45,362 nt of DNA. Source: a virus. Under the pieces are notes generated by a model. It was given only the letters and a program-made list of their open reading frames with translations. It was not told the DNA's origin and ran no database searches. Below, piece by piece: positions 5,899 to 40,281 of the stretch (within the stretch, counting starts at the first letter, position 1; every line of letters begins with the position of its first letter). Location of the stretch: positions 1 through 45,362 of the IMG/VR virus record IMGVR_UViG_3300044800_000145; one strand, given 5' to 3'. Made by a program: the position numbers and the translations under genes.

Positions 5899-6013
5899 CG
5901 ACGATTCTCACACGTCCGGTCTCCACCATCGCATCCGCGCAGGAACCGGCTTCTGCCTTGAATGCCTCGAATGATGCACGGGACACCTCCACCGGGTACG
6001 TGATCGCGGTCAT
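5849..6013 (-). CDS. Small early protein (54 aa)
   Basis: The ORF starts MTAITYPVEVSRASFEAFK at the ATG at 6013, which overlaps the previous stop as ATGA. The N-terminal beta strand followed by a helix, then a second helix, fits an RHH-like fold, which would make it a possible DNA-binding protein. This is a guess from sequence pattern alone. It is the second gene of the early operon behind the palindromic operators. Confidence 0.65.
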   Translation of the reverse strand: MTAITYPVEVSRASFEAFKAEAGSCADAMVETGRVRIVDEQPKVCEKSENNKGN

Positions 6014-6174
6014 GCCGGGATCTCCACGTTATGCCTTTTACAGAGCAATTCCAGTCCCATCAGGAGGCGTTCGGTATTTGTTTCTCCAACGCTTTTCTTT
6101 GCCAGAGCACCCAACATCGCGCGATCGCGCTCGTCAGTTCTTATCTGTAATGTACCAGTTTTCAGATTCTCCAC
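6010..6174 (-). CDS. First gene of the early operon, RHH-like (54 aa)
   Basis: Starting at the GTG at 6174, the protein contains TLQIRTDERDRAMLGALA, which resembles the strand and first helix of an RHH protein, followed by a second helix (TNTERLLMGLELLCKR). The stop overlaps the next ATG as ATGA. The start is uncertain: GGAAG lies immediately before the GTG, leaving little spacing, and a short-leader or leaderless mRNA is possible. The operators at 6181-6208 lie directly upstream, so this gene is the likely first target of the divergent regulator. Confidence 0.65.
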   Translation of the reverse strand: MENLKTGTLQIRTDERDRAMLGALAKKSVGETNTERLLMGLELLCKRHNVEIPA

Positions 6175-6180
6175 CTTCCT

Positions 6181-6274
6181 ATGTAATTACATAGTTATGT
6201 AATGACATAATGGTATAAATACATTTTGAAGTATGGCGGAAAAGAGTGGGGTTTAAATAGTTGTGTAATTACAT
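6181..6274. promoter_or_regulatory. Divergent promoter with three palindromic operators
   Basis: The perfect palindrome TGTAATTACA occurs at about 6182-6191 and again at about 6264-6273. A one-mismatch copy, TGTAATGACA, lies at about 6198-6207 within TTATGTAATGACATAA. TATA-like stretches (GGTATAAATA near 6212 and GTTTAAATAG near 6251) lie between them. The region separates the minus-strand early operon from the plus-strand RHH gene. This is the layout of an autoregulated switch; binding by the adjacent RHH protein is inferred. Confidence 0.75.
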
Positions 6275-6292
6275 ACATTATTTCCCAAAGAG

Positions 6293-6553
6293 GTGGGGGT
6301 GAGATACACGGAGAGAAGCGAGCTCATTCAATTGCGGGTATCACCCGAAATGAAAGAACAGATCCGGGAACTTGCGACAGAAAATGGTTATGAGGCGGTT
6401 TCTGAATTCATCCTTGATCTGATTAATAATAAAATGAAAAATAATGTGAGATATGATGAGATTAGAGCTGCTGTTCTTAAGACATTGAACTATCAAGTAG
6501 TATCAGAAAAAAGGGCGAGGGTAGGCAAGCCTGGCCAAAACCGGCGGACTTAA
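6293..6553 (+). CDS. RHH transcriptional regulator overlapping tRNA-Leu
   Basis: The 86-aa protein has an RHH-type N-terminus: the strand LIQLRVSP, a helix MKEQIRELATENGY, and a second helix EAVSEFILDLINNKMK. RHH proteins bind palindromes as dimers, and three lie just upstream. The start is GTG at 6293 or GTG at 6299 behind AAAGAGGTG. The last 13 codons lie inside the tRNA-Leu gene, and the stop codon TAA is the tRNA anticodon. It is the only plus-strand gene in this half of the window and is probably the repressor of the early operon (inference). Confidence 0.8.
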   Translation: MGVRYTERSELIQLRVSPEMKEQIRELATENGYEAVSEFILDLINNKMKNNVRYDEIRAAVLKTLNYQVVSEKRARVGKPGQNRRT

Positions 6554-6599
6554 GATCCGTTTCCGCAGGGATCCGTGAGTTCGAATCTCACCCCTCGCA
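6515..6599 (+). tRNA. tRNA-Leu (anticodon UAA)
   Basis: It folds as a class II cloverleaf. The acceptor GCGAGGG (6515-6521) pairs with CCCTCGC (6592-6598), with discriminator A at 6599. The anticodon stem GCGGA/TCCGT encloses the loop CTTAAGA, giving anticodon TAA at 6551-6553. A long variable arm contains TCC/GGA. The T stem GTGAG/CTCAC encloses TTCGAAT. No CCA is encoded. The anticodon coincides with the stop of the RHH gene, and the 3' end is two bases from the end of the convergent tail-fibre gene at 6602. Confidence 0.93.
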
Positions 6600-9806: not shown

Positions 9807-11044
9807 GCTCTTCTCCTCACACTGTTTTTCTTCTCGTTGAGTTTCAGGTACTGAATGAGGTCGGGTCTCTGGTTGCCAATCGTAACCTGAACATCATCCG
9901 TCGCGCCGTCAATCCCATAGGACTCCTTGATCTCTAGGATCCTTGCTGATACGATAGCCACCTGGGGATACACCGCGGTAATGATATCTCCCAGATCGAT
10001 ATCCCCAGCGTCCTCCCGCGTCATGTAGGTGATGGAGGCGTCCCGGAAAATCGAGAACTGCGCCGATACCGATTCTCCCAAATCCACTAGAGTTTCGTTG
10101 CCTCGCTGGGTGAGCTCATCCGTTGTGATGCAATCACTACCATCCACGAAGGTCTCTCGCCGGTCATACCCCGTGGGAGCGGAGGTGGCAGGGACACCCA
10201 CAAAAACCCGGTCTTCTGCGAATTTTGAGTCGCCCACATAGGCATAGTTCCGCATCTTGGAGTTGTCCTGAGAATATGCGTAGGTGGCGATGTTCCCGAG
10301 GTCGATGCTGAAAACAACGGAGTCGGTATAATCATTCCCCTCCCAGAAATGGAGGTTGAGTTTTCCAGTTGCTTCATCGAATATGATTTCATAGCCGAGG
10401 TTCGGCGACTGCAGGAGAGTGGATTCGATTGCTTCCGTCAGGTATTGCAGCCGGGCGGAGAAATCTACCTCAGACCCTTTTGTACCGTCTGTCTCGAGCT
10501 GGAGATCGGGAAAGTTCCGGTCTGTGTTCGTGGCGGCGATACAATTCCCGTTCACGAAATGCCGGATCGCCGTCTCGGCTTTCGTTGGGGTACTCACGGT
10601 ATCATACCCGGTGCCAGAGGAGACACCTACATAGGCGATCCGCGTCGAGAGGAGACCACTTGCGCCACTCGCATAGATCTCCCAAACGTCATCGTCAAGA
10701 CTTGAGGGATCGGATGAGATACTCTTCGACTCGATTCTCGCAAGTCTCATCGCGCCGCCCCGGCGGATCCCCAACCAGTAACCGAGGATGATCTGATCAG
10801 ACCCCTCTGCGGTGAGGGGTAGTTTCATTCTCACGGTTCCCGGGGACCGGAGTCGCCGTGTCCATTCCAAGGAGAGGTACTCGTCGATTTCTGCAACCAT
10901 CTCGAAGGATGCGTTATAAATCCGAGCGGGGAACTTCTCCGAGCCGGGATACAACGGCAGCGGGAGGTAGAGGGCATTCGGTACCGTTACTGCTGCACGA
11001 TCGAAATGCGTCCTGTTCCATGGACTCCGGTTGAACTCTCCCAT
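9803..11044 (-). CDS. Siphovirus Gp37-like baseplate/tail protein
   Basis: The 413-aa protein resembles the Siphovirus ReqiPepy6 Gp37-like family, which lies between Dit and the tail fibres and acts as a Tal or baseplate hub-like component. Recognisable parts are RIYNASFEMVAEIDEYLSLEW and a LRSPGTVRMKLPL segment near the N-terminus. A beta-rich middle and a GDIITAVYPQVAIVSARILE region lie near the C-terminus. It ends with a basic tail (KKNSVRRRA). The ATG at 11044 lies just after the PKD gene stop. The family call comes from pattern recognition and gene order. Confidence 0.75.
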   Translation of the reverse strand: MGEFNRSPWNRTHFDRAAVTVPNALYLPLPLYPGSEKFPARIYNASFEMVAEIDEYLSLEWTRRLRSPGTVRMKLPLTAEGSDQIILGYWLGIRRGGAMRLARIESKSISSDPSSLDDDVWEIYASGASGLLSTRIAYVGVSSGTGYDTVSTPTKAETAIRHFVNGNCIAATNTDRNFPDLQLETDGTKGSEVDFSARLQYLTEAIESTLLQSPNLGYEIIFDEATGKLNLHFWEGNDYTDSVVFSIDLGNIATYAYSQDNSKMRNYAYVGDSKFAEDRVFVGVPATSAPTGYDRRETFVDGSDCITTDELTQRGNETLVDLGESVSAQFSIFRDASITYMTREDAGDIDLGDIITAVYPQVAIVSARILEIKESYGIDGATDDVQVTIGNQRPDLIQYLKLNEKKNSVRRRA

Positions 11045-22166: not shown

Positions 22167-24233
22167 TTACCTCTTTATCCTACCGGTTGATGCCCGGAGT
22201 TCGCGCACGGTTGCGAGCGTTTCCATTTCCTTGTCCTCCCCACCGGGACCTTGGGCGTGGGTGGTGCCCTCCGCACCGAGTGCCGGGGCTTTCTTCCACG
22301 ATGCGACCTTGGCCGCGAATCCCAGGGGGTCATCCACGCTCATCTTCTGGAGTTTCGCCTTATCTGCGGGGTCTTTGACCTCCCCGGGCGGGATTACGGT
22401 TTTCTCCAAGTTCTGCCAATCGGCATCGAACTTGTCTTTCTGTGCCTTTACTTTCGCGTCCTCAACAACTTTGAGTGCCGCCTTTGCGTCCTCAAGTTCC
22501 TTGTTGAGTTTCACGACTTGATCCGTCAGTTCCTTGACCTTCGGATCTTCAATGGGTGGTTTGTCCATGTTGTTCTCCTTCTGTGTCTGATTTCCTGACT
22601 GTACAACGTATGCCGGATCAACCGGTACCGGCTGATCGAACGTAATCGTCCCATCACTCGCAACCGTATAAGGCGTCGAGTAATATTGCTCGGTATCCGG
22701 ATTCTGCCATACGACTTGGTCCGGTAACGTCATCACAACATACACCCGTCGAGGTGTCCCATCGGGATACCGCAGTCCGACGGTATCTGACAAGGATTCG
22801 CGGATGTTTGCGATCTGATCTTCCATCGACTGATCGGATGGGATCACTTGCCCGCCGGTTAGGTTAACAGACTGCGTCTTTGCAGCTGCCTTGAATTTCG
22901 CCATGTGGGCATCGAGGTGCGCCTTAACCGCAGTCTGGTCGATTCCCTGCGTCTGTGTGAGCCGGGCGAGGGAATTGGCGACGCCGTTGTGGTTCACGTC
23001 ACCGTTGACTTCATGATGTGGGAGACTCAATCCGGTGAAATTCCCTGATCCGTCATCCCAAGCGAACCGGGTCCGGATTTCAGGGAATTTCATTCCCCCA
23101 AAATCCGTAAGGGTGGGTTTCGACCACGTAGTCTTTGACGAGATCCCGTATCCTTTCGGATTCGGCGGGACCGATCCCGAGGCGGCGTTCATCTTCGGTT
23201 CTGCGGGTGGTGCGGGTTCCTCCCCCCCTGCTAGGATGTCCTCAAAGAATTTCTTGAAGGCATCCATCGCAGCCCTCAGTTTGCTCTCGTTCTTTGTGGA
23301 GATCACTTTTCCAATGTTTAGTTGTGCATTTTCATCTGTCACATTTTCCGTCTCCTGCTTGTTCAGAATTACCGACATCCGGTCAACCGGCTGGTCAACG
23401 GGCGTCTCCTCGAAATCCAATACGTGACTCGGTCTCACAACCCCATACAGGGACTCCCCATCATCGGGGCAGATGAAGGCCGAACTGTGCGAGAGTTTTC
23501 CCTCCTCGATGAGCTGCAGGGATTTTGGGAGGGCATCTAGGGAACGGTTCAGGGTACCCACGCTGATTTTACCCTCATCGTAGAGCCGGAATGCGGTGTC
23601 ATCTGTGTAGTTCTTCCTCACCATGAGCCGCGCCCGTCCGACCGTCTCGAGTGCCGCATCACTGAGCTCGCCCGTAATCGCGCCATCAATACGGGTGAGT
23701 TCTGCTTCGGGGTCTTGATCGAACTTCAACGGATCGGCGTGAATCTTGCTGAAGATAATCGGGATGCTGTTCCAGTCATCTACGGTCGGCACGAACGGTC
23801 CTTTCCCGAAGAAGAGGTGCCCCACCTTCCGATCGAGACCCTGAAGGATTGCATCGTGCCCCTCCACTTTGTTCAACCGGCAGGTCGGGCAGTAGTGTAC
23901 CTGTGTATACCCGGGTATGTCCTGTGAGAGATCCCAGAGGGTGCGTTGGAACCGGTCGTAGGGATCGGCTTGCATCTTCTGGGTCTTTACGGCAGCCGTT
24001 GCCGGCTCAAAAGAGATTACTTTGTGCTCGGGGTGCTTCTTCAGCCACGCCCTTGCCTCTTCCGCGGTGAACTTGGTCTTATCGAATCGAATGGCCTGGA
24101 CCTCGGACTTCCCGGTGTCCGTGATGCCCCAGATAACGTCAATGCCCGTCCCGAACTTGTCTTTCCCGTACCGTTTCTTTGGGTACTTGTCCGGGTTGTT
24201 GATCCTTGCAGAGTGGTATCCGGGGTAAGGCAT
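22167..24233 (-). CDS. Prohead protease-scaffold fusion
   Basis: It has 688 aa from the ATG at 24233; the frame extends to a TTG at 24269 without a binding site. The N-terminus (YHSARI ... FTAEEARAWLKKH) matches a segment common in phage prohead protease (XkdF-like) proteins. The next part resembles a protease core (GKISVGTLNRSLDALPK). A second module around LPHHEVNGDVNHNGVANSLARL recurs in head maturation proteins. The C-terminal coiled coil (KELTDQVVKLNKELEDAK) is scaffold-like. The catalytic residues are not certain from sequence alone. It lies just before decoration and capsid genes. Confidence 0.72.
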   Translation of the reverse strand: MPYPGYHSARINNPDKYPKKRYGKDKFGTGIDVIWGITDTGKSEVQAIRFDKTKFTAEEARAWLKKHPEHKVISFEPATAAVKTQKMQADPYDRFQRTLWDLSQDIPGYTQVHYCPTCRLNKVEGHDAILQGLDRKVGHLFFGKGPFVPTVDDWNSIPIIFSKIHADPLKFDQDPEAELTRIDGAITGELSDAALETVGRARLMVRKNYTDDTAFRLYDEGKISVGTLNRSLDALPKSLQLIEEGKLSHSSAFICPDDGESLYGVVRPSHVLDFEETPVDQPVDRMSVILNKQETENVTDENAQLNIGKVISTKNESKLRAAMDAFKKFFEDILAGGEEPAPPAEPKMNAASGSVPPNPKGYGISSKTTWSKPTLTDFGGMKFPEIRTRFAWDDGSGNFTGLSLPHHEVNGDVNHNGVANSLARLTQTQGIDQTAVKAHLDAHMAKFKAAAKTQSVNLTGGQVIPSDQSMEDQIANIRESLSDTVGLRYPDGTPRRVYVVMTLPDQVVWQNPDTEQYYSTPYTVASDGTITFDQPVPVDPAYVVQSGNQTQKENNMDKPPIEDPKVKELTDQVVKLNKELEDAKAALKVVEDAKVKAQKDKFDADWQNLEKTVIPPGEVKDPADKAKLQKMSVDDPLGFAAKVASWKKAPALGAEGTTHAQGPGGEDKEMETLATVRELRASTGRIKR

Positions 24234-24321
24234 ATAGATATATGGAGTTCTTTGGTTATTTAGCTGCAATCAGCGTCCGTTTCCATAATTTCATATACAT
24301 CATATATGCCATATATGGATC
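24234..24321. promoter_or_regulatory. Divergent AT-rich promoter region of the plus-strand cassette
   Basis: This stretch separates the minus-strand protease gene from the plus-strand cassette. It contains repeated ATATA elements (CATATAGATATATGG near 24231, TTCATATACATCATATATGCCATATATGG near 24290-24319), which are archaeal TATA-box-like in a GC-rich genome. The last element lies just before the first plus-strand ATG, suggesting a short or absent leader. Confidence 0.6.
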
Positions 24322-24477
24322 ATGCCTGCGAGAAAGGCGAGAATGGAGAAACAGATCTGGCTCATCATCCATGAGGGTGAAATTAGGGATGATATCTACA
24401 CGCTTGAGGAGGCTGCAGACCACATGGCCGGGGAAGGTGATCGAGTAATTCCTTATACCATCAGGATTCAAAATTAG
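24322..24477 (+). CDS. Cassette gene 1, hypothetical 51-aa protein
   Basis: The ORF starts at the ATG at 24322 (MPARKAR...) or at an in-frame ATG at 24343 (MEKQIWLIIHEGEIRDD). The second start gives a compact strand-helix protein with TLEEAADHMAG, a helix-turn-like segment. It is the first gene of a plus-strand trio embedded in minus-strand late genes. The family is unrecognised. The start is unclear because no strong ribosome binding site is present, as expected if the mRNA is nearly leaderless. Confidence 0.6.
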   Translation: MPARKARMEKQIWLIIHEGEIRDDIYTLEEAADHMAGEGDRVIPYTIRIQN

Positions 24478-24491
24478 ATTCGAGGCAAAGC

Positions 24492-24638
24492 ATGGGTGAT
24501 GATGACATTTCCAGTATCCGGCTGAGGGTGAAGACAAAAAAGCGGCTCGATGACGAACGTCACGGCCGCGAAAGTGATGACGATCTCATCAACCGGCTGC
24601 TGAATGAATTGCAGGAATACCGCCGGAGATGCGGGTGA
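24492..24638 (+). CDS. Cassette gene 2, RHH/antitoxin-like protein (48 aa)
   Basis: The ATG at 24492 follows GAGGCAAAGC. The protein reads MGDDDISSIRLRVKTKKRLDD, a typical RHH strand plus helix 1, followed by helix 2 (SDDDLINRLLNELQEYRRR). RHH proteins bind operator DNA as dimers. As the middle gene of the cassette it could autoregulate the divergent promoter. Antitoxin-like use is possible but there is no recognised toxin. Confidence 0.7.
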   Translation: MGDDDISSIRLRVKTKKRLDDERHGRESDDDLINRLLNELQEYRRRCG

Positions 24639-24639
24639 T

Positions 24640-24819
24640 ATGGTTTCAAAAGGGACACTAAAATTGATTGCCATTGTGGTTGGGGCAGTTGCCCTGACAT
24701 CTGTGATATGCTATGTGATCTTCGTGCTGATGCCGGATGAGACTGCCTGTGCCTTGGCAGGGCGGCATTACCTCTGCCAGAAACTATCAGAGGGTGTCTA
24801 CCGGTGCGTCGTCCAGTAA
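24640..24819 (+). CDS. Cassette gene 3, small membrane protein (59 aa)
   Basis: The ATG at 24640 follows GGTGAT closely and begins two bases after the RHH stop. The N-terminus has a membrane helix (LIAIVVGAVALTSVICYVIF). A 30-residue outer or inner segment contains three cysteines (ACALAG, LCQKL, YRCVV). Such a single-pass protein is typical of moron cassettes that alter the host envelope or exclude other viruses; that role is inference. A hairpin with a T run follows the stop. Confidence 0.72.
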   Translation: MVSKGTLKLIAIVVGAVALTSVICYVIFVLMPDETACALAGRHYLCQKLSEGVYRCVVQ

Positions 24820-24824
24820 AAAAA

Positions 24825-24847
24825 GGTTTAGAACCTCCCTCTTTTTT
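24825..24847. terminator. Bidirectional terminator-like element
   Basis: GGTT/AACC with a three-base loop lies right after the plus cassette. It is followed on the plus strand by C/T-rich CTCTTTTTT and preceded by an eight-A run that reads as a U tract on the minus strand. It sits exactly at the convergence between plus and minus genes. Confidence 0.55.
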
Positions 24848-25046
24848 CTCGAATGATGAAGTTCAGTTGGTCACCCCATTCGAGGATTTTGTTCATTAAT
24901 TCCGTCCATGCTTCCGGGTCGACCGGCGGGTTGTCGAGCATCCTGAAACAATCTGCTGCGAGCGCCGTTATTTTAAACCCGGTGTTGCGGATTTCCCTGA
25001 TGTCTTCACGAATTATTTTCAGCGTTTTCTCATTGTAAGGGTCGAT
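24828..25046 (-). CDS. Hypothetical protein without a standard start codon
   Basis: A 72-codon frame reads IDPYNEKTLKIIREDIREI ... and ends in REKRGRF. Its amphipathic helices and clean minus-strand codon use suggest coding. However, between the in-frame stop just upstream of 25046 and a late internal ATG there is no ATG, GTG or TTG. Initiation at ATC (25046), a sequencing error, or decay of the gene after the cassette inserted are all possible. No family is recognised. Confidence 0.4.
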   Translation of the reverse strand: MDPYNEKTLKIIREDIREIRNTGFKITALAADCFRMLDNPPVDPEAWTELMNKILEWGDQLNFIIREKRGRF

Positions 25047-25101: not shown

Positions 25102-25410
25102 CTACTTTGTCATCCTCGCCTTCTTCAGGATCGCGACCCGCGCAGTAGAATCGATCTCTTCCTTGGTCAGCCCTTTCTCTCGCGCCGTTCGTAGCAGGGT
25201 TGCCGGGACGTTCACCAGGAGTTGGACCTGGGCGCCCTCTTCCCGCTGTTTACGATAGATATAAGACCGCACGGTCATCCGAGCCCTGCGACCCCCGTTC
25301 TCTTTACGGAATTTCTTACCGAGATCGTGCGCTATCCGACCGGGGCCGTCTGCGAGATGTTTGTCGATATACGCCATCTCATTTTTAGAGAGGGGGCAAC
25401 CTGAGGTCAA
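25102..25410 (-). CDS. Putative DNA-binding protein in head module (102 aa)
   Basis: The frame starts at a TTG at 25410 overlapping the previous stop as TTGA, behind GGAGAGGGAGA; an internal ATG also exists. The sequence is basic and helical: KNEMAYIDKHLADGPGRIAHDLGKKF resembles a helix-turn-helix, followed by RARMTVRSYIYRKQR. The C-terminus ends in KKARMTK. It is downstream of the head morphogenesis gene. The role is unknown; it could be a regulator carried within the late region. Confidence 0.6.
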   Translation of the reverse strand: MTSGCPLSKNEMAYIDKHLADGPGRIAHDLGKKFRKENGGRRARMTVRSYIYRKQREEGAQVQLLVNVPATLLRTAREKGLTKEEIDSTARVAILKKARMTK

Positions 25411-26222
25411 TCTCCCTCTCCGACTATTGGGGTTTCTTCAATGTAGATCGTCCAGCATCCCCGGCAGTTTGGATGGGCCTGAGCGTCAATCTCCGCGGCC
25501 TCCTCTGGCGTGCATACCAGTCCGTCGATCGCGGCGCACCCGTAGTAGGTCTCGCCGCCCACGCTGAACTCCCAGTCTTCGCAGGTTTTCTCATCAATCG
25601 CTTCGAGCCGCTGGAACTTCTCAATCCCGAACTGACCGTATCGTTCCCGCGTGGCCTCGTTGACTGCCCGCATGGTCTCGGTGCGGACGAGCGTAGATGC
25701 CCGGGTGAGCCCGATATCATCCACTGCGGCCAGCATATCCTGGGTGACTTCCTTGAACGTCCGGCCCGCCAGTACGCCATCTGATAGTGTGCGAGTCATC
25801 TCTTTTGACATAGCGTCCGTGATACCCTTCAGTTCGGAGAGGTCTCTGGCTTGCAGGATCTCCATCGTGCGCACATCAGCAGGCAGTTCGGTGATGGGAA
25901 TATCCTTGCCCACCCGGCGCCCCCACAGGACCGCGAACTGGATCCCGTGCCGGTATGCCTCCGTGACGGTTTCCGTGATGATTCTCTCACCCGGGGTCAG
26001 GATGGTGTCCGTTATGGAAGCGCCAAGATCGATCCGGAACGCATCCAAGTTGATAGCCGGAAGATCACCTACCTTCTGGGTCTGGGGTTTTCCCACAAGA
26101 TCCGGGATCTTCTTTTTCAGGTTCTGGAAGAGCCGGTGTAGTCGCACCTCAAACCGGTCTTCGATGTGAAGGGATTGTGAAGGGTCCTTGGCGATTTCCG
26201 GCGAGACTTTGGCTGCCGCCAT
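25407..26222 (-). CDS. Phage head morphogenesis protein (SPP1 gp7 / Mu F-like)
   Basis: The 271-aa protein contains the Mu F/SPP1 gp7 core: RASTLVRTETMRAVNEATRER, then RLEAIDEKTCEDW and a C-terminal AHPNCRGCWTIYI with conserved Cys/His. These minor head proteins bind the portal and help DNA ejection or head assembly. The ATG overlaps the upstream stop as TAATG. It is separated from the portal by five small genes, somewhat more than usual. Confidence 0.9.
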   Translation of the reverse strand: MAAAKVSPEIAKDPSQSLHIEDRFEVRLHRLFQNLKKKIPDLVGKPQTQKVGDLPAINLDAFRIDLGASITDTILTPGERIITETVTEAYRHGIQFAVLWGRRVGKDIPITELPADVRTMEILQARDLSELKGITDAMSKEMTRTLSDGVLAGRTFKEVTQDMLAAVDDIGLTRASTLVRTETMRAVNEATRERYGQFGIEKFQRLEAIDEKTCEDWEFSVGGETYYGCAAIDGLVCTPEEAAEIDAQAHPNCRGCWTIYIEETPIVGEGD

Positions 26223-33112: not shown

Positions 33113-33196
33113 TAGCAGAGACCGGATTCGAACCGGTGAGTCTTGCGACACCGACTTATGGGGCCGGCGGGATTGTCCTGGCTTCCCTACCCTGCT
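33113..33196 (-). tRNA. Class II tRNA-like gene with CAU anticodon
   Basis: On the minus strand the acceptor AGCAGGG pairs with CTCTGCT (one G-U), with discriminator A. The D stem is GGGA/TCCC. The anticodon stem CCGGC/GTCGG encloses CCCATAA, so the anticodon reads CAU with C instead of U at position 33. A variable arm has GTC/GAC closed by GCAA, and the T arm ACCGG/CCGGT encloses TTCGAAT. A long variable arm is expected for Leu or Ser, not Met. It could be a decayed tRNA or a recoded one. No CCA is encoded. Confidence 0.75.
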
Positions 33197-38203: not shown

Positions 38204-40126
38204 TTAATCATCTCCTTTTCTCTCGTTCGCATTATCACCCTCATCGAACGAGAAGAGCGTGATTGGTTCCTGCTGCAGCTCCCGGACCGCGATCGCATGA
38301 GTCTCGGGGTCGATCTCGCACCCGATCCACTGCAGGCCGAGCAGCTTGGCGGCTTTGAGTGAGGTTCCGGTGCCGGCATAGGGATCATACAATACCTGCC
38401 CTGGCTCCATGAACCGGGAGATTATCCCGAGAACGTCATGGATCGACTGCTGGAACGGATGGTACGCTTTCTGCCGTTTGCCCCGAACGACATCTGCAAA
38501 GCACCTCGACGGGGATTTGAACGGCGGCTTCTGGTACACCAGGATGGGTTTATGCAGACAGATAGCGTTGTGCTTGTGGTCCTTCGCGGTCGATTGTGAG
38601 AGGTTGAGTGATGGGATGATCCAGAAGAAATCGAGTGCACATCCTTTGGTCGGGCACATGATTTGGAACGATGACCCGTATGCCAGGATCTCCATGATGT
38701 CGAGTAGGTGGGCCTGCGGGGCGTAGGTGAACAGGAACCCACTAGGTTTCAGGACCTTGCCGGCAATTCTGTTGAGTGCGGCGTATGCTCTCTCCCATTG
38801 CTCCACTTCGTTGATTACCGGCTCCTTTCCATAGGATGGATCCGTGAAAATCACGTCGATGGATTTAGGCGCCATGCGTTTTGTGAGTGCCTCGTTGTCT
38901 TCGAAGTAGAGAGTATTCAGGGCCGGGGGTTCCGGTTTATCCTTATGTAGTTTTTCCGGAGAGGGATCTTTCCCCTCGTCAAGCAATGACACTGCTTTCT
39001 GATATGCTGCAGAAGCAAGTTCTTCTGTCGCGAAATTCCCAAGGAAAATGGCCTTATCTCCTTCCCATATCCGAGCCTGCCATTTGTTGATTTTACGATC
39101 TGCTTTTAGAGTGACACCAGGGTATGAACTGGCTTTCTGACCGTGTCGATTCTGCGAGTTCTGACGGGTGGTTACTATCCGCAGATTTTTCTTTCGATTA
39201 TCGAGGCCGTTTCCATTGATATGGTCGATCTCCATTCCCACGGGGGCATTCATTATCATGCGATGCATTTGGACTTGGGAACCGTTCAGATCTTTCCGTA
39301 CTGCATAATAAACAGAGGAATTTGGATGTCTCATCTTTGCTGACCATTTAAATTGACTGAGCCGGTTATAATCTTCGGCGTCAACCAAGGCGGTCATTCC
39401 CTGAGATAATGGAATTATACTGTCATTTTGTGCCGGTTTCTCGCTCCTCGAGACTGGGATCCCTGATACTTTTGTGTCAGTCCCTGCAAGTGTCTTCGCG
39501 GGGATCCTCCAGAGCGGGCACTCCTTCAGGTCCGCGAATGGGACCCGGATCAACGGGCAGACCGGTTTATCTCCGATATCGCACCGCTGGATGCCGTCCG
39601 GACAACTATTACCGCTACAAGCATGACCGGACTCAAATGCATCACGTGAAACTTTCTGGCATCGCTCGATGGCTCCTTTGATCTGGAGGATCTGGCTCTC
39701 CTGGAACTTGTTACCCAGGACGTTGCAGGGGCATACTCCACACTCACCGAGGGGTTTACCAATGAGGACACAGGTGCCGATCTTGGCGGGGATCTTGCTG
39801 CTTTCCGGCTTCCCTTTTTCAAAGACGAACTTCTCCCCATCGACAAAGATCTTGTATGGGCATTCCTTCGGGCAGTTCCTGACTCCAGGCCGCTGGGCGG
39901 TGTAGGGGCTGTTGTTGAGTTGCCCGCTGACCTGCCTGAGGAAATGCTCTGCATCCATCTCTTTTATGCAGCAATGCATAGCGCCCGGCATGCCATGGGT
40001 GATCTGGCATTGTTGCGGGGAGTCGGGCCATTTCGGATCTTTCTGGAGGTCCGGGCATTTCCTTTCACGACAAACCGCAACGCCGAACTTTTTTTCCTGG
40101 GGGGCGCTACTACTGCAGGAGGTCAT
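38204..40126 (-). CDS. DNA methyltransferase carrying an HNH-AP2 insertion
   Basis: It has 640 aa from the ATG at 40126 behind GGAGG. Residues 1-215 are unusually Cys-rich (about 20 cysteines, several CxxC) with no recognised fold. Residues 237-382 are an HNH-type homing-endonuclease-like domain followed by an AP2 DNA-binding domain (MEIDHINGNGLDNRKKNLRI, then SSYPGVTLKADRKINKW). The class beta methyltransferase domain follows, with motif IV DPSY at about 429-432 and motif I DPYAGTGTS near 581. The insertion is in frame, with no stop. It may have begun as a selfish element. The catalytic DPSY differs slightly from DPPY. Confidence 0.85.
   Translation of the reverse strand: MTSCSSSAPQEKKFGVAVCRERKCPDLQKDPKWPDSPQQCQITHGMPGAMHCCIKEMDAEHFLRQVSGQLNNSPYTAQRPGVRNCPKECPYKIFVDGEKFVFEKGKPESSKIPAKIGTCVLIGKPLGECGVCPCNVLGNKFQESQILQIKGAIERCQKVSRDAFESGHACSGNSCPDGIQRCDIGDKPVCPLIRVPFADLKECPLWRIPAKTLAGTDTKVSGIPVSRSEKPAQNDSIIPLSQGMTALVDAEDYNRLSQFKWSAKMRHPNSSVYYAVRKDLNGSQVQMHRMIMNAPVGMEIDHINGNGLDNRKKNLRIVTTRQNSQNRHGQKASSYPGVTLKADRKINKWQARIWEGDKAIFLGNFATEELASAAYQKAVSLLDEGKDPSPEKLHKDKPEPPALNTLYFEDNEALTKRMAPKSIDVIFTDPSYGKEPVINEVEQWERAYAALNRIAGKVLKPSGFLFTYAPQAHLLDIMEILAYGSSFQIMCPTKGCALDFFWIIPSLNLSQSTAKDHKHNAICLHKPILVYQKPPFKSPSRCFADVVRGKRQKAYHPFQQSIHDVLGIISRFMEPGQVLYDPYAGTGTSLKAAKLLGLQWIGCEIDPETHAIAVRELQQEPITLFSFDEGDNANERKGDD
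38980..39420 (-). mobile_element. HNH-AP2 homing-endonuclease-like segment in frame
   Basis: The segment encoding about residues 237-382 of the methyltransferase resembles free-standing phage HNH-AP2 enzymes. It includes the HNH core DHINGNGLDNRKKNLR and an AP2-type end. Boundary repeats are not visible. In-frame fusion is unusual compared with intron or inter-gene positions. Confidence 0.7.
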
Positions 40127-40281
40127 GGGTTTGCCTCCGGGTCGAAACATGTGGCCTCAGGGAAATTTGCCCGAATGATCTTAAGTCCCAATAGGACGTG
40201 CCGGATCGAGTTCCGCTGCTTTGTTCGTTCCTTGGCCTCCTGCGCTCGCATTTCGAGGAGTTCTTTAATCGTGCCTTTCAT
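40123..40281 (-). CDS. Small helical protein (52 aa)
   Basis: The ATG at 40281 follows GGAGGGAAAACC and overlaps the HNH gene stop as ATGA; its own stop overlaps the methyltransferase ATG as ATGA. The sequence MKGTIKELLEMRAQEAKERT is helical and charged. No family is recognised. It is too short to appear in ordinary ORF lists but is convincingly coupled. Confidence 0.7.
   Translation of the reverse strand: MKGTIKELLEMRAQEAKERTKQRNSIRHVLLGLKIIRANFPEATCFDPEANP

Follow-up and report, generated by a model that had tools for sequence, protein, structure and literature searches.

The window analysed here is a stretch of 45,362 nucleotides, the 45.4-kb virus record IMGVR_UViG_3300044800_000145, in which the structural genes lie on the minus strand. 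Its terminase has its best match in Methanoculleus virus Blf4/L4768 (51%) and several of its tail genes match the same virus, making the Methanomicrobiales the likely host group. The paper describing Blf4 reports that few viruses of methanogens are known, and treats early and late transcription in that virus only as a possibility.

Three small plus-strand genes interrupt the minus-strand genes: G1 (24322-24477, 51 aa), a small protein with a predicted strand-hairpin/helix/strand arrangement; G2 (24492-24638, 48 aa), an RHH-like predicted DNA-binding protein resembling DUF7557; and G3 (24640-24819, 59 aa), which occupies a variable cargo slot and has one predicted membrane span and three cysteines in its C-terminal tail. 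G1 and G2 diverge from the protease/scaffold gene (22167-24233, minus strand), which opens the protease-capsid operon, and across the slot they converge on orf102 (25102-25410, minus strand), a conserved neighbour belonging to the orf102/MuF-like head genes (25102-26222, minus strand). The original prediction of three small plus-strand genes between the protease/scaffold and head genes was thus borne out, with open reading frames where it had placed them. The region that it marked begins at base 24234 because the protease start codon, ATG, occupies 24231-24233 on the minus strand. Protease/scaffold homologues occur in the related sequences L006, L008, L082, L083 and L088; the ATGCC start of the window gene aligns with the starts in L006, L083 and L086, and with those of ATGCCC/ATGCCG type in L082 and L084.

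The nearest relative, L002 (IMGVR_UViG_3300044800_000039), has these three genes at an identical position. Compared to L002, the window genes show dN/dS ratios of 0.06 (G1), 0.08 (G2) and 0.13 (G3), indicating purifying selection, and while coding DNA is 88-95% identical, the 88-bp spacer in front of G1 is identical at 87 of 88 positions. These low ratios and the conserved spacer indicate real genes and a genuine promoter region, both under constraint. A codon-usage score did not separate small genes from shadow ORFs in the window.

Two small proteins and an operator-like array

G2 resembles the archaeal small proteins of DUF7557 (PF24434) over residues 8-38, with E=4e-5 and a score of 23.4 bits against a curated cut-off of 25; four of ten members of its family give E=2e-5 to 4e-5, likewise below the cut-off. 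Its structural model (pLDDT 79) places helices at residues 13-22 and 29-47 after a strand-like SSIRLR region. The monomer model leaves this strand unassigned, as would be expected if it takes shape on dimerisation only. G2 has no PDB match and no significant Foldseek match, and the below-cut-off Pfam match together with the predicted two-helix monomer suggests an RHH-like protein. G1 appears to represent a new small protein family, with 16 invariant alignment positions that include W13, D23, E30, D40 and a PYTI motif. It has no family above cut-off in Pfam, none in PHROGs or PADLOC, and no significant Foldseek fold match, its model being of low confidence (pLDDT 65). Paratox was considered as a relative and rejected, as one member reached E=0.018 over 23 residues and the Foldseek matches 7n10_A and 6cka_A had E of about 3-5, none of them significant.

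The intergenic region (24234-24321) has a GC content of 33%, compared to 53.5% for the window. Just before G1, three 8-bp boxes of CATATATG type at a 9-bp pitch fill positions -30 to -5. A leaderless archaeal gene is expected to have its TATA element about -30 to -23 from the ATG, and the array covers the likely element here: operator-like box 1 (CATATACA, 24292-24299, plus strand) spans exactly -30 to -23 and is also the likely G1 TATA element, followed on the same strand by box 2 (CATATATG, 24301-24308) and box 3 (CATATATG, 24310-24317), the last ending 4 nt before the G1 ATG. The original prediction that the cassette has its own AT-rich promoter is well supported at the level of sequence signals, namely the TATA-like box, the array and the conserved spacer.

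We scored the array as its match to three CATATATG boxes (maximum 24). The window array, CATATACA-T-CATATATG-C-CATATATG, scores 22/24 at 24292, compared to 15 for the next-best non-overlapping site in the window and 18 for the highest triple-box score in 60 simulated windows. In L002, L082, L083, L084 and L086 the array (20-23/24) is the best site in each sequence and lies 3-4 nt before the G1 ATG; it reads CATATATA-C-CATATATG-C-CATATATG in L083, CATATATG-C-CATATATG-G-AATATATG in L086, CATATATG-G-CGTATATA-C-AATATACG in L082 and CATATATC-C-CGTATATG-T-GATATACG in L084. When 2.9 million viral contigs were scanned for the exact pattern, six carried the array, all of them G1-G2 loci (6/6); because the array was first spotted by eye in these loci, recall is built into this result and specificity is the fair test. 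L006, which has G2 without G1, has no array (14/24), in keeping with array and G1 going together; L088, where the pair is present, has a degenerate one only (16/24). Counted as independent lineages, a clear array occurs in three (window/L002, L082-L084 and L085/L086) and a degenerate one in L088. The G2 strand has the sequence SSIRL in lineages with the array, STMRA in L088 with its degenerate array, and TTIRV or TTIGV in lineages lacking one; across these few lineages, the variation fits a role of G2 in reading the array. Outside the array, single CATATATG-like sites in the window occur at chance (13 found, 12.45 expected), so control is local, with one operator rather than a regulon, and a genome-wide CATATATG box regulon was rejected. 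The three-box array as candidate control site of G1-G2 is new here.

Predicted back-to-back promoters and transcript ends

The protease/capsid genes probably have a second, leaderless-type promoter. A TATA-like box, CTAAATAA, lies at 24256-24263 on the minus strand, again -30 to -23 from the ATG, and L006, L082, L083, L084 and L086 have similar boxes 21-22 nt upstream of their protease ATG. The boxes of the divergent lineages (CTAAATAA, CTATATTG, CTATATAG, CTATAATA and CTAAATAC) keep nearly the same distance. TATA-like boxes at matching distances from both ATGs point to two promoters placed back-to-back in a divergent spacer of 85-98 bp, an arrangement common to the window, L082-L084, L086 and also L006, where G2 stands alone. 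Within this spacer a single operator-like box matching at 7/8 positions (CATATATC, 24237-24244, minus strand) covers -11 to -4 of the protease start. A similar box is found at the corresponding position in L086 and none in L082-L084, and as an operator it is suggestive only. A scan for sigma-70 promoters gave chance-level results, and such promoters were set aside as irrelevant to an archaeal virus.

At the other end of the cassette, the terminator-like hairpin that had been proposed did not hold up: the plus strand folds at -4.3 kcal/mol, compared to a shuffle mean of -5.25 (z +0.49), and a simple terminator scan did not list it. Instead, A7/T6 tracts lie between the convergent units (24818-24847), giving T6 on the plus strand (24842-24847) and T7 on the minus strand (24818-24824), both also present in L002. 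T-tracts are the usual archaeal termination signal, and those at this convergent end likely provide bidirectional termination. We also observed a conserved minus-strand reading frame at 24828-25031 (dN/dS 0.09 compared to L002), which has a single ATG (24941) but stays open upstream of it as far as a stop, without a usual start codon.

Relatives of the G1-G2 pair and the cargo slot

The relatives are metagenomic fragments. Capsid-based scans found L006, L007 and L008 (capsid identity 86, 78 and 78%), in each of which this junction holds a homologue of G2 (52, 43 and 42% identity). No G1 or G3 was detectable beside G2 in L006 and L008, nor in L007, which starts about 140 bases before G2 so that G1 could lie beyond its end. 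The G2 gene of L006 runs antisense, diverging from the protease; those of L007 and L008 have the late (sense) orientation and lie among other small genes, far upstream in the case of L008. A G2 profile scan recovered L082, L083, L084, L085/L086 and L088/L089, in all of which G1 directly precedes G2. The capsid of L082-L084 is only about 30% identical to that of the window, and the terminase, portal and protease of L086 have no match to their window counterparts; despite this unrelated head module, L086 carries G1-G2 at the same junction, antisense and divergent. L088 has the pair in late-sense orientation, not divergent from the protease, and a 112-aa antisense gene (10150-10488, minus strand) lies between the two.

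Counted by lineage, the pair occurs in four (the window's and three further) and G2 in six, being present in every related lineage with a sequenced junction and standing there without detected G1 in two (L006; L007/L008). A G1 profile scan found no G1 outside G1-G2 loci. Every G1 relative returned has G2 alongside, while the converse fails in L006 and L007/L008. Phage and plasmid records held no G2, and phage records gave two partial, chance-level matches to G1 (E=5). A provirus search of 84,980 genomes found none with the capsid query and bacterial loci only with the terminase query.

G3 is found only in the window and L002, which is 95% identical, and has no family match above cut-off in Pfam and none in PHROGs or PADLOC. 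Between L082 and L084, identity is 90.7% as far as the last G2 codon. Beyond it the two have small genes unrelated to each other (a zinc-ribbon-like 49-aa protein in one and another small ORF in the other), placing the swap exactly at the G2 stop codon, and 89% identity resumes inside orf102. A third type of occupant is common to L083 and L006, and L086 and L088 have none. This swap and the differing occupants indicate that the slot behind G2 is an exchange site of small genes. The third type is the same small basic protein in both sequences (L006 7460-7600, minus strand; L083 10138-10284, plus strand), ending RRRAHAPMCVR.

The original prediction took all three genes for a moron-like insert, expressed independently of the lytic programme and possibly serving host fitness or superinfection exclusion. 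The cassette does resemble phage morons in being antisense to the late genes, in having a predicted promoter of its own and in its variable, lineage-specific third gene, which sits in a swap site. The T-tracts at its end also favour this reading, as does Blf4: this virus, which is lytic and related through its terminase and tail genes, is without an antisense cassette and has all 63 ORFs in one direction. However, phage morons differ from a core pair kept in relatives. Because the pair is found in four lineages and G2 at every sequenced junction, G1 and G2 are core genes, and their presence in relatives largely refutes the moron reading for these two. The GC content of the cassette genes (50.4%, compared to 53.5% for the window) is not foreign-looking either. 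The prediction had named presence in all relatives, combined with a lack of independent transcription, as the finding that would speak against it, and the comparison gave half of this, with G1 and G2 kept at the junction and G3 confined to one lineage. A moron made up of all three genes is thus improbable, and the idea appears to apply only to G3 and its slot.

A predicted self-regulated control module

We interpret G1-G2 as a control module that regulates itself and is conserved among tailed viruses with Methanomicrobiales as their probable hosts. In this module G2 would bind the array and repress its own operon, and we put the probability of this reading, drawn from sequence comparison, at roughly 60%. 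The operon would probably be on early, before capsid genes are needed. G2 dimers would bind the three tandem palindromic boxes side by side, covering TATA element and start site, blocking TBP and so capping the operon's own expression. G1 would probably be a partner of G2, either co-repressor or anti-repressor, and the cargo gene after G2, here the small membrane protein G3, would be co-expressed under the switch. Since both promoters share one short spacer, occupancy of the array would probably also affect the protease/capsid promoter, plausibly by crowding. Counting against the module are the degenerate array and late-sense pair of L088, and the late-sense G2 without detected G1 of L007/L008.

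Several of these observations could also be accommodated by a type II toxin-antitoxin system, with G1 a small toxin and G2 an RHH antitoxin autorepressing the operon, serving virus or provirus maintenance or the exclusion of other viruses. The two tiny co-oriented genes, the weak match of G2 to VapB_antitox (E=0.03) and the fact that G1 is never found without G2 agree with such a system, which equally predicts a self-repressing RHH gene and an operator of autoregulatory appearance. However, G1 matches no toxin family in Pfam, PHROGs or PADLOC, its alignment holds no conserved His and no recognised RNase-toxin signature, and a mobile pair would not be expected to keep a fixed place next to the protease promoter when the head modules differ, leaving this explanation unlikely. 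The opposite emphasis would make the capsid operon the principal target, with G2 first repressing the protease/capsid promoter and its release starting head assembly. This would parallel SvtR of SIRV1, an archaeal virus RHH autorepressor that acts also on a structural gene, whose promoter it binds with its highest apparent affinity (PMC5569661), and it would suit both the divergent spacer, kept even where G2 is alone, and the box-like site that the window and L086 have at -11 relative to the protease start. SvtR differs in its inverted-repeat type of site and its unrelated virus. L082-L084 have no array at the protease start, the L088 pair is not divergent from the protease, and G2 of L008 lies far upstream in sense orientation. 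A timer aimed first at the capsid operon is possible but doubtful. Because the protease box-like site occurs in two lineages only, control of capsid genes by G2 is weakly supported, also as part of the self-regulated module. Only tentatively would we extend that module to a two-protein switch, an RHH repressor with a small modulating partner, which would act through the shared divergent promoter and its three-box array to set the timing of the head-assembly operon relative to an exchangeable accessory gene, and would do so in methanogen viruses whose head modules are unrelated.

RHH repressors of the MetJ/omega type bind short palindromic or heptad boxes cooperatively and side by side. The predicted binding of G2 to tandem boxes resembles theirs, and differs in the 8-bp boxes, the 9-bp pitch and the AT-only core that overlaps an archaeal TATA element. 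Two archaeal viral RHH proteins, SvtR and F55, act as repressors of their own promoters; the latter, also a tiny protein, binds tandem repeats overlapping BRE/TSS elements (PMC5569661). In contrast to G2, F55 controls several early operons through repeats of the form ATAGATAG, while the G2 module comes with a single three-box array in each genome, with a conserved partner gene besides G2 and with a capsid operon running divergently. The module offers a predicted repressor-operator pair that is minimal, has a precisely defined target of 26 bp and is testable with purified components, and the slot next to G2 marks a site of small accessory gene exchange in such viruses.

The cassette is not the sole plus-strand coding in the window. 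A second RHH locus (6010-6553) holds an RHH-like, NikA/TacA1-like 86-aa ORF (6293-6553, plus strand) and, diverging from it, a small minus-strand ORF (6010-6174); between the two lie three 16-nt palindromic repeats of TATGTAATTACATA type. A tRNA-Leu(TAA) (6515-6599, plus strand) overlaps the end of this RHH ORF; it and a tRNA-Met(CAT) (33113-33196, minus strand) may be tRNA genes that the virus carries or a remnant of integration. A 648-aa minus-strand ORF (38204-40150) fuses an HNH endonuclease domain to an N6/N4 DNA methylase domain.
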